Source: JBFLYE01 sp040756715 [NCBI: bacterium]
GTDB taxonomy: Bacteria; UBA9089; UBA9088
NCBI GenBank assembly: GCA_040756715.1
Contig: JBFLYE010000206.1
Coordinates: 1 to 7,870, forward strand
DNA length: 7,870 nucleotides
Direction: 5' to 3'
In this document: piece after piece, positions 1 to 7,870 of the stretch
Layout of the letters: each line of letters starts with the position of its first letter
Position numbering within the stretch: position 1 is the stretch's first letter
Notes under the pieces: generated by a model
What the model was told of the DNA's origin: nothing
Databases searched by the model: none
Seen by the model: the letters and a program-made list of their open reading frames with translations, nothing else
Made by a program: the position numbers and the translations under genes

Positions 1-1499
1 ATCAATATTTATTGAGCCAGATGAGCCAGGGGCTAGGCAGGGAAGGAGAAAGCTCTTGGTTGTGCCATCAGGCAGAATGTCCTCAATAACCCCATCATTA
101 AGCTCTGTTTGTCCTGTGTTTTGGTATGTGAGGGTATAGGTTATGGTGGATAGGGTATATGCCTCATCTGGTCCATCTTTCTTTAGGCTTATGGTTGGGA
201 TACCAATGAGCTTAAAGGTTGTGGTGACAAAGTTTCCATAAGAATCTGTTGCAGTAATTATCTTTGTACAGGAGGGCTGGGTGTCTACAATAAAGGTGGT
301 GGAAAATGAGCCATATTCATTAGAAGTTGTGGTTGTAATTGTCCAATGTGTGCCGAAGGAGATAGAGATTACACTTTCTGTGGCAAAACCAAAACCTTCA
401 ATAATAACTTGTGTGCCAACATTACCAGAAGATGGGACAACAATAATTTCTCTTTGACCTATCCAGGGTTTATAATCTACCCCGTCAGATACTTTATCTC
501 CTTGTCCAGAAACATTTGTGGTTGGATGATATGGCCCAGATTCATGTCCCCACCAATTGTAAATAGCAGAGATTGTCCCTGAAGAGCCATCGTGATAGAC
601 ACCATAGCCTTTGGTATTATCGCCATTTTTGTTGCTATAGAGGTTGTTGTAATGTATCACTGGATTGGAAGATGAACAAGAATATATTCCACAGCCATTG
701 CCAGGAGAACCCCAAGGACCACGTCCCCATGTTACTCCTCCTCCTTGACCTCCTTGATTATTCAATATTGTGTTTTGTTGGATTGTAATATTTATTGAAT
801 TATAAAGATATATTCCACAACCTATACCACCTGGACAACCAAGTTGACCAGAATATCCACCACTGATTGAATATCCATTCTCACCTATTCCTCCAGCAAT
901 AATGTTACTTCTTATAATAAAATTCTGGCAGTTGATTAAGACAACCCTCCCTAAGTTAGTTGATCCAGAGCCAGCAAGGGTTAAAGTTTGACTTTCAACA
1001 ACAATCCCCAAGGTTCCATAGTAATAATGAATTGATTCACCATTATATGTGTTATTTGGTGAAATAGTATTGTTGTAACTATCTGAACTAATGTGGATAC
1101 CATATCCATTACCAGGGGGCAGCAGGTGGAACAAGCCAACCTCCCGGATCTCCTTCACCACCTTGACTGTTTAATATAGTATTTCCAAATATATTATTAT
1201 TTATTGAATTATTGCAAAGATATATTCCACAGCCTATACCTCCACGACCAGGTGCGACATACCACCAGCCCGCAGCATAATGTCCACCTTTTCCACCTAT
1301 ATTATCTGAAATAGTATTATTTGATACAGTATTTGTGCTTGAATTGTGAAGATAAACCCCAACTCCTGGTTTTTCCCGTTTGAGCATCACCTGGTCCAAT
1401 ATCACCTTTATTATTATGGATATAATTATGAGTGACCACAATTTCTGATGTATTCTCCAGAAATATTGCTTGTTCTGCAAACATAATTTCAGTACGTGT
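1..1499 (-). pseudogene. Broken, 5'-truncated beta-helix surface protein with IPT/TIG-like and DUF11-like domains (continues past left edge)
   Basis: Reading right to left, three minus-strand segments in different frames join into one protein. Segment A (1499 to about 1374; first ATG at 1484) carries TEIMFAEQAIFLENTSE and HNYIHNNKG. Segment B (about 1370 to 1120) carries GVGVYLHNSSTNTVSNNTIS and GGIGCGIYL. Segment C (about 1115 to 1) is open to the window edge. Each switch has the sense of one extra base, in an A5 run (1370-1374) and a C5 run (1115-1119). N/G-rich rungs with NNTI, NTIL and GxGIYL are typical of right-handed beta-helix (NosD-like) proteins. The helix ends in a cap with NWWG (558-547), followed by GP and a VSDGVDYKPW stretch. 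An IPT/TIG-like domain follows (about 460-205; VPSSGNVGTQVIIEGFGF), then the start of a DUF11-like domain (TYTLTYQNTG, IEDILPDGT). No signal peptide is visible, and a TAA at 1502-1500 closes the frame upstream. It was probably an exported adhesin or glycan-binding protein. The frameshifts could be sequencing errors. Confidence 0.72.
741..1243 (-). repeat. Two divergent copies of a beta-helix coil unit inside the broken gene
   Basis: The stretches 1243-1153 and 831-741 encode matching units. Both run GGIGCGIYL, then an N/S/I-rich rung, then NTILN, then a QGG-type glycine turn, followed further on by a GNGxGI motif. The nucleotides are also visibly similar, for example ATTCAATAA and GGAATATATCTTT in both. 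This looks like an old internal duplication with a spacing of about 410 bp. It supports reading segments B and C as one gene despite the frame change between them. Confidence 0.6.
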
Positions 1500-1515
1500 T
1501 TAGCTAAAGCTAAAC
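1498..1515. repeat. Palindrome with 8-bp perfect arms at the truncated end of the beta-helix gene
   Basis: The arms GTTTAGCT (1498-1505) and AGCTAAAC (1508-1515) are separated by two A residues. The palindrome supplies the TAA (1502-1500) that closes the beta-helix reading frame at its 5' side. It may therefore mark a rearrangement junction. This is inference from position only. Confidence 0.6.
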
Positions 1516-1516
1516 A

Positions 1517-1543
1517 ATTGCAAATTGTAGATTGCAAATTGTA
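1517..1543. repeat. Tandem direct repeat ATTGCAAATTGTA x2
   Basis: ATTGCAAATTGTA occurs at 1517-1529 and again at 1531-1543, a 14-bp period with one intervening G. The unit has AATT/CAATTG symmetry. A related CAATTTCAAATTG string sits at 5795-5807 upstream of sepS, which suggests a low-complexity repeat type scattered in this genome. Confidence 0.6.
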
Positions 1544-1587
1544 AAATGAAAGAGAAATGTTAAATTTTGATGGAGATTTTTTAATAA

Positions 1588-1653
1588 CGAATGAAACGAA
1601 TAACAACTAATCACACGAATATTCGCCTAATTCGCTATCATTCGAGCAATTCG
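1588..1653. repeat. CGAAT / ATTCG repeat cluster with inverted symmetry
   Basis: Three CGAAT words on the left (from 1588 to about 1620) are followed by four ATTCG words on the right (to 1653). The two sets meet at the perfect palindrome CGAATATTCG (1616-1625). The spacing between words is 4-13 bp. The arrangement is an irregular inverted cluster and could fold in RNA or cruciform DNA. It is not a CRISPR array, because the units and spacers are far too short. Confidence 0.55.
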
Positions 1654-1820
1654 TTTTTATAAACAAAGCGTTTCTGGCTCTTTAATGAGGAAGCTTAAAC
1701 ACATATTAAGGAGCTAAACACATACAACTTTTAATGTTCCAATGCAGTAGATACATTTTATGAAGATTTAGTGGCCTGACTATATTATGACCATTTATGC
1801 AAAGAACTATAAAGGTCAAG

Positions 1821-1846
1821 GTAACCGTTCAGGTCTGAACACTTAC
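1821..1846. repeat. Imperfect 26-bp palindrome spanning the argH stop codon
   Basis: The inner arms GTTCAG and CTGAAC are perfect around a 2-nt centre, and the outer GTAA/TTAC arms pair across a 2-bp mismatch. The argH TAA (1845-1843) lies inside the outer arm. No run of T follows on the minus strand, so it does not look like a rho-independent terminator. It could stabilise the 3' end of the mRNA or belong to a dispersed repeat. Confidence 0.5.
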
Positions 1847-3189
1847 GAAATAAGAGAGCTAATCCTCTCTTTAAATGCATTTTCTTCATTTTCAACCTCT
1901 TTCTTTGCACCTTTAATCACCTCTCTTGCCTCATCAAGGCAAAGATTGCCACATCCTCCGATAGACTTCCTTTCCTTTATTAAAGAATAGGGGTCAAGGG
2001 GAGGAAGGTTTCCTATATTTTCTCCTATTTTTCTATATGCATCCCTGAATGGGAGGTTTTCTTCTTGAACCATCTTTATTGCATAATCTGTGGCAAATAT
2101 CTCTGGGCTAAATCCCTTTAATAGGGCTGCTTTATTTACCTTAAGGTTTTTTATAATGGTAATTGCCGCATCAATTATGGAAGAGGCCAAATCGCAAGCC
2201 TTGAAAAATGGCCTTTTTGTCTCTTGAAAATCCTGGTTATATCCTGAGGGAAGGCTGTTTATAATGGATAATATCTGGAATAAATATGAGATAAATGTAT
2301 TTGACCTTGCCCTGATCATCTCTAATACAGAGGGGTTTTTCTTCTGTGGCATTAGGGAAGAGCCAAGCAAAAATTTATCTTCCAGGCTAAAATAGCCAAA
2401 TTCAGGAAGCAAAAAGAGCATTAAATCAGTAGAGAATTTAGAAAGGTCAAGGATTGTCCAAAGAAATGAGAATAAAATATAAGATTCTATCTTTCCCCTG
2501 CTATTGTTGACATAAAGAACATTTTTCTGCAATCTTTCAAATCCAAGGATTTCCCTGACAAATTCCCTGTCTATAGGAAGGGATGTTCCATAGCTACTAC
2601 CTGCGCCCAGCACAGATTGATCATTCATCTTATAGCTAGATGAGATAATGGAAATCCCATCCAATATGCTTTCTAAAAATGAACCCAGCCACAGGGAAAC
2701 CGATGATGGCATTGCCTTTTGTAAATGTGTCCTTCCAGGCATTGGGATAAATTCATTTTCCTTTGCAAGATTTAAGAAGGATAAAGCAAGCTCAATATGC
2801 TTTTTCTTTTGAAGGAGCAAGAAATCCTTTGAATAAAGCCTTATAGCCAGAATTACCTGCTCATTCCTTGAGCGTCCTGTATGTATTTTTTTCCCTAAAT
2901 CCCCTAATTTCTCGGTAAGGTAATTCTCTATCTTTGTATGGACATCCTCATCAGGTCTTTCAATGATAAATTTTCCACAATTATCAAGCTCAATGATTTC
3001 AAGAGCGCATTTTTTTATCTTTTCTTCCTCATCTTTTTTAAGGATTCCAATCTTCTGTAAGGATTTTATGTGGCCAATTGAGCCCAAACAATCCCATTTA
3101 ACAAGCCTTTGGTCTAATAAATAATCATCAGAGACAACAAAATCTTCTATTGTCTTATCTATTTCCTGCCCTTTTTCCCAAAGCCTCAT
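1843..3189 (-). CDS. argH: Argininosuccinate lyase
   Basis: Cytoplasmic last enzyme of arginine synthesis, which splits argininosuccinate into arginine and fumarate. The 448-residue product has the family's usual length (about 450-470). Fumarase/aspartase-superfamily landmarks are present in order: [12 protein letters not shown] (80-91), TGRSRNEQV (104-112), [10 protein letters not shown] (152-161) and the signature [11 protein letters not shown] (276-286) in the flexible loop that carries the catalytic serine. The N-terminal LWEKGQ differs from the LWGGRF common in bacterial ArgH, but the following [15 protein letters not shown] matches the family. The ATG at 3189 overlaps the thrC stop as ATGA with no Shine-Dalgarno, so re-initiation from thrC is likely. 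It is the last gene of the sepS-thrC-argH operon. No other arginine gene lies in the window. Confidence 0.96.
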
Positions 3190-4334
3190 CGTTTAAAAAT
3201 GTGTTTGGCTATAACATCAAGATTGCAAGGAAGGCTTTGGGATATATTTGCTGTTTTCATCACCAATTCCGGGTCTTTTAATCCATGACCTGTCAATATG
3301 CAACAAGCTATTTTCCCCTTCTTTAAGTAGCCCATTTTTGAAAGCTTAAGCAAGCCTGCAATGGATGCCGCAGATGCTGGCTCTACAAATATGCCCTCTT
3401 TTGCAATAAGCTTATAGGCATCAAGAATTTCATCATCAGATACCTTCTCTATTATCCCTTGTGATTCGCTTATCGCCTCTTTTGCTTGTTTCCAGGAAGC
3501 AGGGTTTCCTATTCTAATTGCTGTGGCAATGGTCTTTGGCTCTTTTATAATTCTATTCTCTACAATAGGTGCTGCACCTTCTGCCTGAAATCCACACATC
3601 ACAGGAAGGCTTTTTATTTTTCCGCAAAATTTATATTCCTTATATCCCTTCCAATAGGCAGTAATATTTCCTGCATTTCCCACCGGGATAATGTTGTAAT
3701 CGGGTGCTTTTCCTAATCTATCGCATATCTCAAAGCTGGCTGTTTTCTGGCCTTCTATCCTATTTGGGTTTATTGAATTAACCAGGCAAATTGGATATTT
3801 TTTGCTTATTTCTTTAACCAACTCTAATGCATCATCAAAGTTTCCTTGAACAGGAATAACATTTGCTCCGTGAATTAAAGCCTGGACAAGCTTTCCAAGG
3901 GCAATCCTTCCCTCTGGAATTATAACCACACATTTTATCCCTCCCTTTGCTGAGTAAGCGGAAGCAGAGGCAGATGTATTTCCGGTTGAGGCACAGATAA
4001 CCGCCTTTGCACCCTCCTCAATTGCCTTTGAGATAGCCACAGTCATCCCCCTATCCTTAAATGAGCCGGTTGGGTTTAGGCCTTCATATTTAAGATAGAC
4101 AGAGAGACCTGTTGTTTTAGATAGCCTTTCTGAGAAGATAAGGGGCGTATTCCCCTCTAAAAGGGTTATGACAGGCGTTTTCTCTGATACAGGCAAAAAA
4201 TCCCTGTATCTTTCAATTACCCCTTTATAGTCTGGAGTCTGGAGTCTTCTGTCTGGAGTCGGAAATTGGAATTTAGTATTTAAGATTTTGTTCTCTGACT
4301 CCTGACTCCTGACCTCTGACTCCTGACTCTTCAT
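3186..4334 (-). CDS. thrC: Threonine synthase with a repeat-derived N-terminal extension
   Basis: PLP fold-type II enzyme that converts O-phosphohomoserine to threonine. The core (from about residue 38) has the compact Thermus-like layout: [33 protein letters not shown] with the PLP-binding Lys93, [13 protein letters not shown] (115-127), GNAGNI (219-224) and EPASAAS (318-324). At 382 residues it is longer than the roughly 350 usual for this type. Residues 2-36 are encoded by a low-complexity inverted repeat block and do not resemble ThrC; the peptide alternates QES/SEV-like units. No in-frame ATG, GTG or TTG occurs between 4334 and the conserved core; the first such codon is the TTG at Leu47 in RDFLPV. 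The ATG at 4334, overlapping the sepS stop as ATGA, is therefore the only plausible canonical start. It also overlaps argH downstream by ATGA. A role on phosphoserine instead of phosphohomoserine cannot be excluded from sequence, but I favour ordinary ThrC. Confidence 0.95.
4230..4330. repeat. Inverted low-complexity repeat block captured inside the thrC 5' end
   Basis: On the plus strand, 4230-4260 consists of GTCTGGAGTC-type units (three GGAGTC words). The part at 4291-4330 consists of TCTGACTCC/TGACTCC-type units. The two arms are inverse relatives: GTCTGGAGTC differs in one base from the reverse complement of GACTCCTGAC. The centre (4261-4290) is AT-rich. The block has no stop in the thrC frame, so it adds about 35 codons. 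Its position exactly at a gene junction and its unit structure suggest a short mobile or slippage-prone repeat, not ThrC sequence. Confidence 0.7.
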
Positions 4335-5764
4335 CCTGCTTTAATTCCAAAGAACAAAGGCCCCTTTGTGATTATCCTCTTGTTATTTGAGGTAATGTAA
4401 TCCATAATCTCTTTTGGTATGGAAAGGTTTATATCTGATGGATGCTCGGCAATTTTAAATTTCACATCTAGCTCTGTTTTTCCCTCCCTGAATTCCCTCT
4501 CCATTCTTGCCACAAAGCCATCGGTTATTAGCTTTAAAAAGACAAGGCCTGTGTTTATCCCATTTTTATAAACCTCCTCAACTCCCTTTAAAACACCCTC
4601 CTTTGGAAGTCCAAAGATTTCACCATTATAGACCCAGATTTCATTAAAGCCTGCATATGAAACAAGAGGTTTTTCCGAATCCCAATTATAGGCTGATATT
4701 TCTATATCCCTTCCCAAAAACCTTCCGCTATAACACAAAATTTCAATTGGCCCTAATTTATCCTTTGCTTCCTGTATCTTTTTAAAGATAATGGATGAAA
4801 TTTGTGCTCCATAGCTTGGGCTTTGTTCGCAGCCTAATTTTTCTGCAATTTCTTTGTCGGTAAAGATAGGTTTATAAAATTGAAAGAAAAGGAGCCTTCT
4901 TAAATCCTGTTCATTGTTCAATATCCCAGCCAGCCTCTCAACCCCAAAGCCAAGGTTAAAAATAGGGTATTCTATTCCATAGTTTGCCAGGGATTCCTTT
5001 GAATAAAACCCAAGGTTTGCAACCTCAATTCCTTCAGCAAAAACCTCTGTATCTGTCCTTTCCTCATAATAATTAGATGTTACCGCCTTTGTTTTAAATT
5101 CAATATTTTTAAAACCTATTTCCTCAAGAATTTGTGCACAAAGCCTCTTTCCTTTCTCTAAATCAAAGCCTTTTTCAATAACCACACAGGATGATGATGT
5201 GCTTTCAAACAAATGGCTTTCGTCCTGTCTTTGCTCCCTTCTAAACCTTAAACCTTGTGAGAATAGTTTAATGGGAAGGGGCTTTGTTTTTATAAGATGG
5301 CTTAATGTTGGATACCAGGCTGATGTCATATGAGACCTTAATGTCTTTTTGTAGGAAATAGGGTATAAATTTTTAAGCTCAAAAAATACCTCCTCCACCA
5401 GCCTTATTCCATCTTTTTTTGTTATATCAAGCCTTTTTACCAATTCCTCAATAAAATCATCCCCTTCAATATTTCCCTCTTTGTATTCACGAAGAAATCC
5501 CTTAATCTCATCCCATTTTGAAAAATCGGGGATTATTTGCCTTACCCTGCCTTCTTTTTCCTTTGAAATACCAAGCTCTGGTCTATCTAGTCCTGCAATA
5601 TAAAATACCCTATCGAGGATTAAAGGTGCCTCTTTTCCATATTGAAGAAAGACATCCTTCTCATCAACTATTACCGGATTGATTACCTCATCAAAGGAAA
5701 GATTAAGAAATATCTCCCTTAATTTAGCACATAGGCTATTAACAGGATGCTCTTTTCCTCGCAT
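4331..5764 (-). CDS. sepS: O-phosphoseryl-tRNA(Cys) synthetase (SepRS), bacterial form
   Basis: Class II synthetase that attaches O-phosphoserine to tRNA-Cys; SepCysS then makes Cys-tRNA. Matches to archaeal SepRS recalled from memory run along the whole length: GKEHP (3-7), [12 protein letters not shown] (51-62) followed by GIS, LRSHMT (142-147), LPIKLFS (163-169), motif 2 FRREQ (174-178), SSSC (190-193), TEVFAEG (239-245), motif 3 [10 protein letters not shown] (270-279), SDINL (443-447) and KGPLF (467-471). By my alignment Thr147, Ser190, Ser192 and Asn270 fall where archaeal SepRS binds the phosphoserine. At 477 residues it is shorter than archaeal SepRS (about 530-550), mainly for lack of some 40 N-terminal residues. 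A TAA ten codons upstream leaves ATG 5764 as the only canonical start. There is no Shine-Dalgarno. It overlaps thrC by ATGA. The main alternative, PheRS alpha, a relative, lacks LRSHMT/SDINL together. SepCysS and tRNA-Cys are not in the window. Confidence 0.92.
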
Positions 5765-5773
5765 TTTAAGGTT

Positions 5774-5803
5774 TTTAAACTTTTTTAAAATTTACAATTT
5801 CAA
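5774..5803 (-). promoter_or_regulatory. Candidate sepS promoter giving a leaderless or near-leaderless mRNA
   Basis: TTGAAA (5803-5798), an 18-bp spacer, then TTTAAA (5779-5774), 9 nt before the sepS ATG. The -35 is 5/6 and the -10 is 4/6 of consensus. A start 7-10 nt past the -10 would put the 5' end at or within 3 nt of the ATG. The region is very AT-rich, so a chance match is possible. Read-through from rplU is an alternative source of sepS mRNA. Confidence 0.4.
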
Positions 5804-5806
5804 ATT

Positions 5807-5822
5807 GGGCCCTCTAGGACTC
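5807..5822 (+). repeat. Partial direct copy of the tRNA 3' end (att-like duplication)
   Basis: On the plus strand, the sequence at 5807-5822 begins GGGCCCTCTAGGACTC. The tRNA 3' end read on the same strand at 5935-5950 is GGGCCCTGCAGGACTC. The two are 14 of 16 identical, in the same orientation and 128 bp apart. The copy spans the acceptor 3' strand and part of the T arm. Duplications of this kind usually flank DNA integrated at a tRNA gene. No integrase is present here, so this may be a remnant. Confidence 0.6.
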
Positions 5823-5934
5823 TCCCCAAGAATTTTCTAAGGGGAAAAACTCGCACTTGCTCGTTTTTCGCCCTAACAAAATTCTTTGGGTCGGCCCTCA
5901 CTTCGTTCGGGCTTCGAGTCCTTTTCCCCTTAAT
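5807..5934. repeat. Nested palindromic spacer between the tRNA and sepS
   Basis: AAGGGGAAAAACTCG (5839-5853) pairs with CGAGT-cc-TTTTCCCCTT (5915-5931): 15 bp with a 2-nt bulge. The stretch 5824-5843 matches the reverse complement of 5871-5890 at 17 of 20 positions, giving a second, interleaved inverted repeat. GGCCCTCACTTCGTTCGGGC-like sequence near 5893-5912 adds a small hairpin. GGGCCC lies at the left edge (5807-5812), and the tRNA's own GGGCCC (5935) borders the right. No reading frame of note is present. Transcribed, it would be a strongly folded RNA just after the tRNA 3' end. It resembles a small non-coding insertion unit. Confidence 0.7.
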
Positions 5935-6007
5935 GGGCCCTGCAGGACTCGAACCTGCGACCCTCTGATTATGAGTCAGATGCTCTAACCAACTGAGCTA
6001 AGGGCCC
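5934..6007 (-). tRNA. tRNA with CAU anticodon, probably tRNA-Ile2 (lysidine type)
   Basis: A complete 74-nt cloverleaf on the minus strand. Acceptor stem GGGCCCT/AGGGCCC, D stem GCTC/GAGC, anticodon stem TCTGA/TCAGA with loop CTCATAA, T arm GCAGG-TTCGAGT-CCTGC and discriminator A (5934); CCA is not encoded. The CAU anticodon could mean elongator Met, initiator Met or Ile2. Initiator is unlikely, because the anticodon stem lacks the three G-C pairs. The CTCATAA loop and the C4/C5 of the acceptor resemble E. coli and Bacillus tRNA-Ile(CAU), whose C34 is changed to lysidine by TilS. Its first 39 nt overlap the rplU reading frame. A partial copy of its 3' end lies at 5807. Confidence 0.9.
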
Positions 6008-6307
6008 TTCTATCTTTTCTATAAGAATTGAGGTGTATTTTTGCCTATGGCCTTGTTTTTTGTGATAACCCTTTCTTGGGATATGCTTCATTATAGTAAT
6101 CTTTTTTGCCTTTTTCTCTCCCAAAACCCTTGCTTTTACTTTAAAAGAAGAAAGATTATCAAGGATAAGATTATTCTCATCCCTTACCATTAGAAGATGG
6201 GAAAATTCAATCTCACTCTCCTTTGGCTTATCCAAAAGGTCAATATCTATAACCTCTCCCTCCTTTGCCACATATTGTTTTTTTCCTATCTCAAAAACCG
6301 CATACAT
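5969..6307 (-). CDS. rplU: 50S ribosomal protein L21, ending inside the tRNA gene
   Basis: Large-subunit protein L21, which binds 23S rRNA. The start MYAVFEIGKKQY, the KAKKITIMKHIPRKGYHKKQ stretch (67-85) and GHRQKYT (86-92) are diagnostic. Residues 1-100 (ending ILIEKIE) already match the normal L21 length of about 103. The last 12 residues, GPLAQLVRASDS, are the translation of the tRNA 5' half, a peptide familiar from frames running across tRNA genes. There is no stop before the tRNA. The TAA (5971-5969) is made of tRNA bases 36-38 of the anticodon loop. The start ATG 6307 has a strong Shine-Dalgarno. The usual partners rpmA (L27) and obg do not follow; the tRNA and sepS do. It may be transcribed with the tRNA. 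Confidence 0.95.
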   Translation of the reverse strand: MYAVFEIGKKQYVAKEGEVIDIDLLDKPKESEIEFSHLLMVRDENNLILDNLSSFKVKARVLGEKKAKKITIMKHIPRKGYHKKQGHRQKYTSILIEKIEGPLAQLVRASDS

Positions 6308-6312
6308 CTTTT

Positions 6313-6318
6313 CCTCCC
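6313..6318 (-). promoter_or_regulatory. Strong Shine-Dalgarno of rplU
   Basis: GGGAGG (6318-6313) lies 5 nt before the rplU ATG, inside TAGGGAGGAAAAG. It is the only clear ribosome binding site in the window and it fixes the rplU start. The other starts are either ATGA-coupled or appear leaderless. No convincing rplU promoter was seen between 6319 and 6381. Confidence 0.85.
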
Positions 6319-6347
6319 TATATTTTTATAAAATCTTTACCTTTTTT

Positions 6348-6381
6348 ATTCCGCATTCCGCAATCCGCATTCCGCATTTCC
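6348..6381. repeat. Heptamer tandem repeat ATTCCGC between pilU and rplU
   Basis: Plus-strand units are ATTCCGC (6348-6354), ATTCCGC (6355-6361), AATCCGC (6362-6368) and ATTCCGC (6369-6375), followed by a decayed ATTTCC (6376-6381). The array directly abuts the pilU stop codon (6384-6382) and is about 40 bp upstream of rplU. It has no hairpin potential of note and is not a terminator. It looks slippage-prone, so copy number may vary between strains. Confidence 0.85.
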
Positions 6382-7449
6382 TTATACCAGCCCCTTCATC
6401 TTAAGCCTCATATCATTTGGACTGTCAGAATAGCGAAGGGCATCCTCCTGGGTTATCTTTCCTTGATTATAAAGGTCATATATTGCCTGGTCAAAGGATT
6501 GACAACCCTCATTCCTTCCTCCCTCAATGGCTGACTTAAGCTCACCTCCTATCTGACCCCTTCTGATAAGCTCCTTTATCCTTGGGGTGCAAAGCATAAT
6601 CTCAATTGCGGCAACCCTTTTTTTATCAATCCCAGGGATAAGCCTCTGGGAGATTACCGCCTTAAGATTCAATGATAAGGCAAGGAATATCTGAGGATGC
6701 ATCTCATCAGGAAAGAAATTTATTATCCTTTCCATTGTCTGATTGGCATTGGTTGAATGCAGGGTTGATAAAACAAGGTGGCCTGTCTCTGCATAGTAAA
6801 GGGATGAAGATACAGTTTCAAGATCCCTCATCTCGCCGATAAGAATGACCTCGGGTGCCTGACGCAATGCATTCTTTAAGGCAGATGAAAAGGAATGTGT
6901 ATCTATGCCAACCTCCCTCTGGCTTACCACCCCTTTTTTATCCATATGGACAAACTCTATGGGGTCTTCAATGGTGATAATATGTCCTGTCCTATTCTCA
7001 TTCCTGTAGTCAATTAGTGCGGCTAGGGTGGTTGATTTTCCAGAGCCGGTTGCTCCGGTAACCAAAACAAGACCCCTTGGTGTTAAGGCAATCTCCTTAA
7101 AAATAGAGGGTAGATTAAGGTCTTCTAAGGTTGCAATCTGAAGCTTTATCTGGCGAAAGACAATAGCAACCGATTCCCTTTGTCTATAGACATTTACCCT
7201 AAACCTTACCCCAGGAAGGTGATAAGCACAGTTAAGCTCTTTCTCCCTTTCAAATTCCTTCTTTTGCTCATCGGTCATAATGGAATAAGCAAGCCGCTCT
7301 GTATCCTCAGGGGTTAATTTTTCCATCTTTGCCGGAAGGGTGGCTCCTTCTATCTTATACATTGGAGGAGAACCTGTTTTAATGTATAGGTCGGATGCAT
7401 TTGTTTCTACCATTTTTTCAAGCATCTGGTCAATACTCATTGTAATCAT
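6382..7449 (-). CDS. pilU: PilU/PilT-family type IV pilus retraction ATPase
   Basis: Cytoplasmic hexameric ATPase of the type IV pilus machine. Numbered from ATG 7449 (355 aa): an N-terminal PAS-like region with NASDLYIKTGSPP, Walker A GATGSGKST (132-140), Asp box TIEDPIEF (159-166), Walker B VILIGEMRD (201-209) and His box GHLVLSTLH (223-231). The C-terminal QSFDQAIYDLYNQGKIT and ALRYSDSPNDMRL strongly resemble PilU, and the PilT hallmark AIRNLI is absent. I therefore prefer PilU over PilT. The frame also extends upstream to a TTG at 7485, but that TTG coincides with a -35 box. The first ATG past the predicted start site is 7449; ATG 7440 (MSIDQML) is equally possible. It is divergent from trxB. 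No other pilus gene is in the window. The alternative is a generic PilT-like GspE-superfamily ATPase. Confidence 0.92.
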   Translation of the reverse strand: MITMSIDQMLEKMVETNASDLYIKTGSPPMYKIEGATLPAKMEKLTPEDTERLAYSIMTDEQKKEFEREKELNCAYHLPGVRFRVNVYRQRESVAIVFRQIKLQIATLEDLNLPSIFKEIALTPRGLVLVTGATGSGKSTTLAALIDYRNENRTGHIITIEDPIEFVHMDKKGVVSQREVGIDTHSFSSALKNALRQAPEVILIGEMRDLETVSSSLYYAETGHLVLSTLHSTNANQTMERIINFFPDEMHPQIFLALSLNLKAVISQRLIPGIDKKRVAAIEIMLCTPRIKELIRRGQIGGELKSAIEGGRNEGCQSFDQAIYDLYNQGKITQEDALRYSDSPNDMRLKMKGLV

Positions 7450-7455
7450 AGCAAA

Positions 7456-7485
7456 AATATAATTTATTTCTGTAGCATAAGTCAA
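7456..7485 (-). promoter_or_regulatory. Predicted pilU promoter, leaderless arrangement
   Basis: TTGACT (7485-7480), an 18-bp spacer, then TATATT (7461-7456). Both hexamers are 5/6 of the sigma-70 consensus. The ATG at 7449 lies 6 nt after the -10, so the transcript should begin at or next to it, or about 9 nt before the ATG at 7440. No Shine-Dalgarno precedes either ATG, in keeping with a leaderless mRNA. Confidence 0.6.
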
Positions 7486-7495
7486 GTTTTTGTGC

Positions 7496-7525
7496 TTGAA
7501 ACCAAATTCTTGTTAAGTATATAAT
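7496..7525 (+). promoter_or_regulatory. Predicted trxB promoter, leaderless arrangement
   Basis: TTGAAA (7496-7501), an 18-bp spacer, then a perfect TATAAT (7520-7525). The ATG at 7534 begins 8 nt later, so the predicted transcript starts at or within about 2 nt of the ATG. There is no Shine-Dalgarno in ATTTCAAA. Only 10 bp separate its -35 from the -35 of the divergent pilU promoter, so a shared regulator could affect both genes. Confidence 0.65.
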
Positions 7526-7533
7526 ATTTCAAA

Positions 7534-7870
7534 ATGGAGCTTATCATCATTGGTTCTGGTCCAGCAGGATTATCAGCAGGGCTTTATGGAAAAAGGCTGG
7601 GCATTTCCTGCTTGATTATAGAAGGAAAAAACCCCTCCCTTGCAACCCTTACAGAAAAGCTAGAAAATATCCCAGGAGTTCCAAAAATCTCAGGGTTTGA
7701 TTTTATAAATAACCTTAAGGAGCAAGTGAAATCATTTGGTGTCTCTATTATTCCTTCTGATTGCAAAGGAATTATAGAAAAAGATGGTCTATTTGAGGTT
7801 CATTGTGATGACAAATTTTACACAGCCCAGAGCATAATTATTGCAACGGGTGCATCTCTTAAAAGGCTAA
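7534..7870 (+). CDS. trxB: Thioredoxin reductase-like FAD/NAD(P)-dependent oxidoreductase, N-terminal part (runs off right edge)
   Basis: Only the first 112 codons are present. The product opens with a beta-strand and the FAD-binding GSGPAG (7-12). ENIPGVPKISGFDF (44-57) follows, matching the ENxPG region of TrxB, and then IIIATGAS (101-108), the second FAD-fold motif. TrxB proteins usually have GGQ before that ENxPG region; here it reads GKNPSLATLTEKLENIPG, with no GGQ. This may place the protein among TrxB-like proteins, such as ferredoxin- or flavin-dependent variants. The CxxC active site and the NAD(P) motif lie beyond the window, so the electron donor and acceptor cannot be named. The start ATG 7534 is chosen because the family begins right before the GxGPAG strand and because of the promoter position. 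Confidence 0.85.
   Translation, partial: MELIIIGSGPAGLSAGLYGKRLGISCLIIEGKNPSLATLTEKLENIPGVPKISGFDFINNLKEQVKSFGVSIIPSDCKGIIEKDGLFEVHCDDKFYTAQSIIIATGASLKRL

Follow-up and report, generated by a model that had tools for sequence, protein, structure and literature searches.

A SepRS gene in a bacterial order without a detected CysRS

Can a bacterium make its Cys-tRNA only by way of phosphoserine? The question is raised by contig JBFLYE010000206.1 of JBFLYE01 sp040756715 (NCBI GenBank assembly GCA_040756715.1; positions 1 to 7,870 of the forward strand, hereafter the window, the whole 7,870-nucleotide stretch that was analysed). On it, a first-pass annotation made from the sequence had recognized a gene for SepRS, the synthetase that attaches O-phosphoserine (Sep) to tRNA-Cys. 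We find that the gene encodes a SepRS and not the alpha chain of phenylalanyl-tRNA synthetase (PheRS-alpha). Our reading, to which we assign a probability of roughly 0.86, is that a working SepRS charges tRNA-Cys(GCA) with Sep, and that in the window's order this pathway is probably the sole means of tRNA-Cys charging and the sole cysteine biosynthesis. The cysteinyl-tRNA synthetase CysRS is generally listed as a gene that all bacteria share. If the reading is true, a CysRS-free lineage making Cys-tRNA only via phosphoserine would demonstrate that a bacterium can exchange the standard route for the archaeal one.

The SepRS gene of the window

The gene and its parts, with residue equivalents in Archaeoglobus fulgidus (A. 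fulgidus) SepRS, are:
4331..5764, minus strand: sepS, encoding SepRS (TIGR00470, Pfam and solved-structure sequence matches)
4865..5764, minus strand: class II catalytic part, residues 1–300 (PylRS and PheRS chains cover model residues 2–300; PF01409 at residues 83–292)
5324..5332, minus strand: H145-M146-T147, equivalent to His186-Met187-Thr188 (H145 and T147 in 67/67 aligned rows)
5189..5197, minus strand: S190-S191-S192, equivalent to Ser231-Ala232-Ser233 (S192 constant in 67/67 rows)
4949..4957, minus strand: N270-X-G272, equivalent to Asn325-X-Gly327 (N and G in 67/67 rows)
4334..4864, minus strand: C-terminal part with the anticodon-binding domain, residues 301–477 (marginal SepRS_C match; only SepRS chains reach residue 477)
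4679..4690, minus strand: clade signature Y359-N360-W361-D362, with N360 at Glu418 and D362 at Glu420
4607..4609, minus strand: L386 at the Ile444 (m1G37-reading) position, by alignment to A. fulgidus SepRS

The sepS open reading frame starts with ATG and encodes 477 residues, while the plus strand over the same positions holds 29 stops; upstream, the frame could be extended by 9 codons only (486 residues). In profile searches the product scores 420.2 bits against TIGR00470 sepS (curated cut-off 380.65, E 1e-125), compared with 62.2 bits against pheS (cut-off 237.45) and 42.9 bits against PylS_Cterm (cut-off 178.15). The TIGR00470 match begins at profile position 44 of 533, the first ~40 positions being missing from the enzyme, and there is no fused editing domain. 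Pfam tRNA-synt_2d (PF01409) matches the catalytic part with 123.3 bits, and SepRS_C matches residues 374–406 marginally (27.1 bits, cut-off 26.9). Of 35 matching sequences with solved structures, SepRS takes the first eight places (2odr, 2du7, 5x6c, 2du5, 2du3; E 1.6e-89 or lower), and the ninth is PylRS at E 8.1e-8.

Pairwise alignment to the A. fulgidus enzyme, from which its residue numbers were counted and for which the codon places of the pocket residues were checked, pairs H145, T147, S190, S192, N270 and G272 with H186, T188, S231, S233, N325 and G327. We take H186, T188, S231 and S233 to form the phosphoserine pocket. The equivalents of H186, T188, S233, N325 and G327 are invariant in all 67 aligned SepRS rows. 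Position 231 is not diagnostic, because its residue varies among SepRS rows (Ser in 12/13 rows of the window's clade and 16/54 others). The Asn-X-Gly motif of SepRS is named in Mukai et al. 2022 (PMC8762117); the pocket residue names were not found in the available part of PMC5688128, and searches of the open-licence literature for SepRS Asn325, for E418 and for SepRS in candidate phyla likewise returned nothing.

Relatives were collected by an alignment-based scan of genome contigs, of which the best 80 of 82 were retained; a single-sequence scan of the contigs had given 70 pattern matches and zero confirmed relatives. An AlphaFold model, built from a 34-row alignment (the window plus 33 relative loci out of the 80), has a mean pLDDT of 92.7 and a pTM of 0.72. 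Foldseek ranks SepRS chains first (2du3, E 1e-49), with the first PheRS at 1.1e-13. In VIA-align, SepRS chains align across model residues 2–477 (Z 30–32, 328–464 residues, 34–38% identity), whereas PylRS and PheRS chains reach Z 25.8 or less over about 200–220 residues. The whole-chain root-mean-square deviation is 7–9 Å, so the domain arrangement either differs or is poorly predicted.

For the tree, 61 of the 80 relatives were combined with the window and five phylum rows into 67 rows, all SepRS, with PheRS left out. Nine relatives, being partial or short, were not extracted (L142, L145, L163, L168–L171, L174, L175), and ten were skipped: one with 26 stops in the chosen frame (L173) and nine near-copies judged by eye (L131, L151, L153, L154, L156, L161, L164, L166, L167). 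L161 is titled Desulfobacteraceae Eth-SRB1, yet its start resembles an Argoarchaeum row, and a bin mix-up is suspected. The quick maximum-likelihood tree places the window in an all-bacterial clade of 13 rows (12 phylum rows and the Nitrospirae genome HyVt-268; SH-aLRT 100), separate from four other bacterial rows and 50 archaeal rows. Within it the window branches with the same-genus genome G016, then with UBA9088, then with DeMMO4_10. Because 12 of the 64 inner branches are open forks, only the 13-row clade and its membership are used here.

The first-pass annotation had described a 477-residue class II synthetase at 4331–5764 with SepRS landmarks and with Thr, Ser, Ser and Asn residues of the phosphoserine pocket, and had suggested a profile comparison with PheRS-alpha and a tree. 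The TIGR00470 score and the SepRS structures confirm the synthetase, and T147, S190, S192 and N270 are in place. The profile comparison gives SepRS over its cut-off with pheS far under, and the tree sets the window inside a bacterial SepRS clade, the separation from PheRS resting on the profile and structure scores.

The anticodon-binding part carries a signature of its own. The position of Glu418 is Asn in 13/13 clade rows and Glu in 54/54 other SepRS rows, and the motif YNWD, with Trp after the Asn and Asp at Glu420, is invariant in the phylum rows and HyVt-268. The entry 2du5 is, by its title, an E418N/E420N SepRS mutant in complex with tRNAOpal, so that the natural Asn of the clade is the counterpart of E418N, one of its two changes. 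The Ile444 equivalent is Leu in 12/13 and Ile in 1/13 clade rows.

The pathway across the phylum

The window is contig C206 of its genome (G000), an assembly of 1.55 Mb in 218 contigs and 96% complete. We surveyed 19 genomes of the phylum (G000–G018) and 14 control genomes; the window's order comprises G000 and G014–G017, within which G016 shares the window's genus and G017 its family. We take the phylum to be GTDB UBA9089, to which UBA9088 would belong. UBA9089 is equated with Ca. Desantisbacteria in PMC10591310 and listed as Ca. Omexiota, with 34–44% GC and 1.09–3.11 Mb, in PMC11382960. The window's 38% GC fits these values, but 3/19 genomes are larger than 4 Mb and fall outside the published sizes, so UBA9089/Ca. 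Desantisbacteria, probably the right name for the host group, is provisional.

G000 has one tRNA-Cys gene (contig C49; anticodon GCA, A37, U73), as found by a pattern search that allowed zero mismatches and could let an odd second copy escape. On L139:335-3609, three tRNA-Cys(GCA) calls, one of them 91 bases long, surround a Patescibacteria SepRS gene.

SepRS exceeds its cut-off in 12/19 phylum genomes, with a further contig-edge fragment in G015. SepCysS, the enzyme of the second step, does so in 10/19, with G012 (350.6 bits) and G017 (319.1 bits) just below the cut-off of 365. SepCysS homologs thus accompany SepRS in 10 of the 13 SepRS-bearing genomes, counting these two and the SepRS fragment. 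CysRS is over its cut-off in 9/19 (G001–G004, G006, G007, G008, G012, G013) and in 13/14 controls. By the same profile search it is over cut-off in none of G000, G005, G009–G011 and G014–G018, and every one of these ten has SepRS or SepCysS: six combine both (G005, G009, G010, G011, G016 and, with SepCysS below cut-off, G017), and G015 holds SepCysS and the SepRS fragment. The window's order yields CysRS over cut-off in 0/5 genomes, all drafts of 78–97% completeness. The top weak match to the CysRS profile in G000 is MetRS, and three others look by eye like Leu-, Ile- and ValRS-like frames. All three proteins occur together in G007, G012 (SepCysS below cut-off) and G013. Within one genus, G005 has SepRS and SepCysS without CysRS, and G006 has SepRS and CysRS without SepCysS. 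SepCysS itself seems to take other forms in the phylum (L042, L047, L048; the lower-scoring pair is G012 and G017), and in G016 it lies beside a gene that by eye is ThiF/MoeB-like.

The cysK/cysM profile cut-offs are exceeded in 3/19 phylum genomes (G001–G003) and 11/14 controls, and in 0/15 genomes with SepRS or SepCysS, where weaker matches reach up to 62 bits and were typed individually only in G000. The contrast between cysK and SepRS gives a Fisher p of 0.004, which is not from independent genomes, since the four without SepRS and SepCysS (G001–G004, G004 with a cysK/M fragment only) are one genus. Profile searches of the G000 assembly found neither cysK nor cysM; of its four PALP matches, two are threonine synthase-like (the window's thrC and another gene on C120, 283.5 bits) and two are halves of trpB, each at a contig end. 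From these draft genomes, CysRS and CysK/M appear to be absent across the order.

In G018, which holds SepCysS, a CysRS remnant (L077:482-720, contig C185) has ~45 residues of the N-terminal end adjoining ~37 of the C-terminal end in a different frame, without the middle of the protein; decay and assembly error are not distinguishable. Beyond the 19 phylum genomes, five SepRS genomes with bacterial titles were searched for CysRS, with L161 left out. It is over cut-off in two, HyVt-268 and one Patescibacteria genome, and not over cut-off in three titled Parcubacteria, Nealsonbacteria and 'bacterium', for which completeness was not given, so that CysRS-less SepRS bacteria may exceed one phylum.

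The first-pass annotation had thought that the pathway might replace CysRS or CysE/CysK. In the assembly this stands insofar as CysRS does not exceed its cut-off and cysK and cysM are missing, and the tRNA-Cys(GCA) it asked after is present. SepCysS, which it also listed, is not in the G000 assembly; it is present in same-genus and same-family relatives, from which the second step is taken.

Weighing the phosphoserine route

In the proposed scheme SepRS would attach O-phosphoserine to tRNA-Cys(GCA), an activity predicted from sequence, and SepCysS, which we place in the unassembled part of G000, would supply the second step. Because CysRS and CysK/CysM are missing, this pathway is probably the order's sole route, serving as both its only tRNA-Cys charging and its only cysteine biosynthesis.

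Several observations weigh against this reading. SepCysS (TIGR02539) has no match at E 1e-3 in the 96% complete G000 assembly, and SepRS occurs without SepCysS in 3/13 genomes (G000, G014, G006), compared with 0.66 expected from incompleteness. One of these, G006 (99% complete), has SepRS and CysRS and no SepCysS; conversely, G008 and G018 have SepCysS without SepRS. Asn at the Glu418 position might change the choice of tRNA. G000, G014, G016 and G017 have no HcyBio, a homocysteine protein of the methanogen type. As 15/19 phylum genomes carry it, among them the four that lack SepRS and SepCysS alike, it is no marker of the pathway. HcyBio lies on the SepCysS contig in G005, G010, G013 and G015 (L037, L038, L044, L046); at L038 and L046 a ferredoxin-like open reading frame and a small helical one, which may be SepCysSn, are seen by eye.

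We attribute the missing SepCysS of G000 to an assembly gap. The gene is present in G016 (511 bits) and, below cut-off, in G017, on contigs of only 3.3 and 3.8 kb, and a contig of this size would easily be lost in binning. A search of G000 for class V aminotransferases (PF00266), sensitive enough that a similar enzyme would be expected to be caught (the SepCysS of G016 and G017 score 50 and 43 bits), returned seven matches: one SufS-like (365 bits, below its own cut-off), one BhcA-like, four sugar-aminotransferase-like and one class I aminotransferase-like. In G000, MetRS and DnaJ have Cys codons at their CxxC motifs, and since these motifs are intact a cysteine-making step must presumably exist. 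For the same reason insertion of phosphoserine at Cys codons is rejected.

A CysRS gene might likewise lie in the unassembled part; SepRS would then serve cysteine biosynthesis while CysRS charged tRNA-Cys directly, a combination found in some methanogens and in G007, G012 and G013. The 218 contigs and 96% completeness of G000 leave room for this, and those three genomes carry both routes, but none of the order's five genomes has CysRS over cut-off. Multiplying the missing fractions of these genomes gives 1.7e-6 if gaps were independent, a rough figure, since gaps in metagenome-assembled genomes are not. We regard this coexistence in G000 as unlikely.

An altered amino acid or tRNA specificity, as in the Thermoplasmata and deltaproteobacterial SepRS-like proteins of PMC8762117, would fit the clade-wide Asn at Glu418, where the 2du5 mutant carries the first of its two substitutions. 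The Asn-X-Gly motif is intact, however, as are the equivalents of H186, T188 and S233, and SepCysS homologs accompany SepRS in most of the phylum genomes that carry it (10/13, as counted above), which makes such a shift very unlikely.

SepCysS might instead be truly lost and Sep-tRNA-Cys converted by another pyridoxal phosphate (PLP) enzyme, for example the thrC-like protein coupled to SepRS. Its absence from the G000 assembly would agree with this, as would the thrC-like gene that overlaps sepS in G000 and G017 and follows it in G016, and the existence of a second threonine synthase-like gene on C120. Yet G016 and G017 retain SepCysS alongside the same thrC-like gene, whose product reaches twice the cut-off as threonine synthase (330 bits) but no more than 74 bits against cysteate synthase; we consider this substitution highly improbable.

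That a PheRS-alpha or PylRS paralogue, with its common class II core and weak PheS and PylS matches, was mistaken for SepRS can be dismissed, given SepRS over its cut-off with both others far under, SepRS structures in first place and a true PheS of bacterial type (335.7 bits) encoded at another site in the genome.

The reading of SepRS as the order's route can be taken further. We consider it somewhat better than an even bet that the order and further lineages of the phylum have given up CysRS and CysK/CysM and now depend on SepRS and SepCysS alone, with a re-built anticodon site (Asn-Trp-Asp for Glu-X-Glu/Asp, a natural E418N) reading tRNA-Cys, and that the CysRS remnant of G018 is a fossil of the change. 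An archaeal-type pathway would in that case have taken over bacterial cysteine decoding wholesale. The phylum offers several states side by side for studying such a change: CysRS only, both routes, SepRS without CysRS, and a CysRS remnant. The natural Asn at Glu418 is also a testable lead on anticodon reading by SepRS, useful for phosphoserine incorporation tools.

Gene neighbourhood and comparison with known systems

Upstream of sepS lie a tRNA-Met gene, rplU and a pilT-family ATPase; downstream lie thrC and argH:
3186..4334, minus strand: thrC-like PLP enzyme (TIGR00260, 330 bits, cut-off 167; ATGA overlap with the sepS stop)
1843..3189, minus strand: argH (TIGR00838, 292 bits, cut-off 279.5; ATGA overlap with thrC)
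5934–6007, same strand as rplU: tRNA-Met gene, between sepS and rplU

The three overlapping genes sepS, thrC and argH are likely one operon, and the linkage would be operonic company rather than mechanism. The order sepS–thrC recurs in G017 and also in G016, where it sits at the end of a contig (C112:6787-6894). A reassigned TGA is rejected, as the sepS stop is the TGA inside the ATGA junction. The sepS gene has 36.5% GC, its neighbours 35–42% and the window 38%. Contamination as its source is also rejected, because relatives hold the gene (87% identity in the same-genus genome; 66% in the same-family genome, with the same gene order). An archaeal contig is excluded by bL21, the rplU product, and the bacterial neighbours. 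This bears out the first-pass annotation, which had called the contig bacterial and named thrC/argH and rplU/pilU as neighbours, except that the profile used does not separate PilT from PilU and types the ATPase only as pilT-family.

Three details of the neighbours are recorded here. The rplU frame enters the tRNA-Met gene (window 5934–6307), so that its last 12 residues are tRNA-encoded, and the L21 profile covers residues 2–99. The first ~35 codons of thrC (4220–4334) look like an inserted repeat, with 16-nucleotide direct repeats at 4293 and 4314, and G017 thrC is without this stretch. At 1–1606 on the minus strand, a beta-helix/DUF11-like protein (weak Pfam matches) spans two overlapping frames, perhaps through a frameshift.

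Bacterial SepRS has been described before. Mukai et al. 2022 (PMC8762117) report it from 'Desantisbacteria-like' bacteria and Nitrospirae HyVt-268, where a threonyl-tRNA editing domain is fused at the N-terminus. HyVt-268 (row L099) falls in the window's clade, and we find the editing-domain fusion in G010, G011, G012 and HyVt-268; the window's enzyme differs in having neither this domain nor the archaeal N-terminal extension. The window genome also lacks a CysRS over cut-off, whereas HyVt-268 has one. The suggestion of the first-pass annotation that the window might represent another bacterial group with the pathway therefore falls, as the SepRS of this group was already published in 2022. 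The window's SepRS is a further member of a known bacterial group, and the stronger point is that the order, judged from draft genomes, appears to have neither CysRS nor CysK/M.

Mukai et al. 2017 (PMC5424206) describe SepRS of Parcubacteria and Chloroflexi, two of which charge A37 and G37 tRNA-Cys in vitro; the A37 tRNA-Cys of G000 resembles one of these substrate types. That type of enzyme has a hydrophilic residue at Ile444, mostly Asp, and has lost the following helix. The window's enzyme has the hydrophobic L386 there, the segment after it is not shorter than its A. fulgidus counterpart, and Patescibacteria SepRS forms a separate clade in our tree, which held no Chloroflexi rows. By these sequence features the window's SepRS does not fit the Parcubacteria/Chloroflexi type. 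Gene order differs as well: sepS and the SepCysS gene lie on separate contigs in 10/10 phylum genomes with both, and in one operon in the bacteria of PMC5424206.

The available text of PMC8762117 also notes an altered Asn-X-Gly motif in the Thermoplasmata and deltaproteobacterial SepRS-like proteins. No CysRS-less bacterium is described in the main text available from PMC8762117, PMC5424206, PMC9499178 or PMC11580382, all open-licence papers, although one may stand in their figures or supplements. With the archaeal enzymes (A. fulgidus 2du3, M. jannaschii 2du7, M. maripaludis 2odr) the window's SepRS shares the fold and the Sep pocket, and it differs from them in Asn rather than Glu at 418, in having no N-terminal extension and in its bacterial host. 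Many methanogens have SepRS without CysRS in their genomes (PMC8762117). The window's order appears to share this state with them, as a bacterial order in which, in the window's family, HcyBio is absent.

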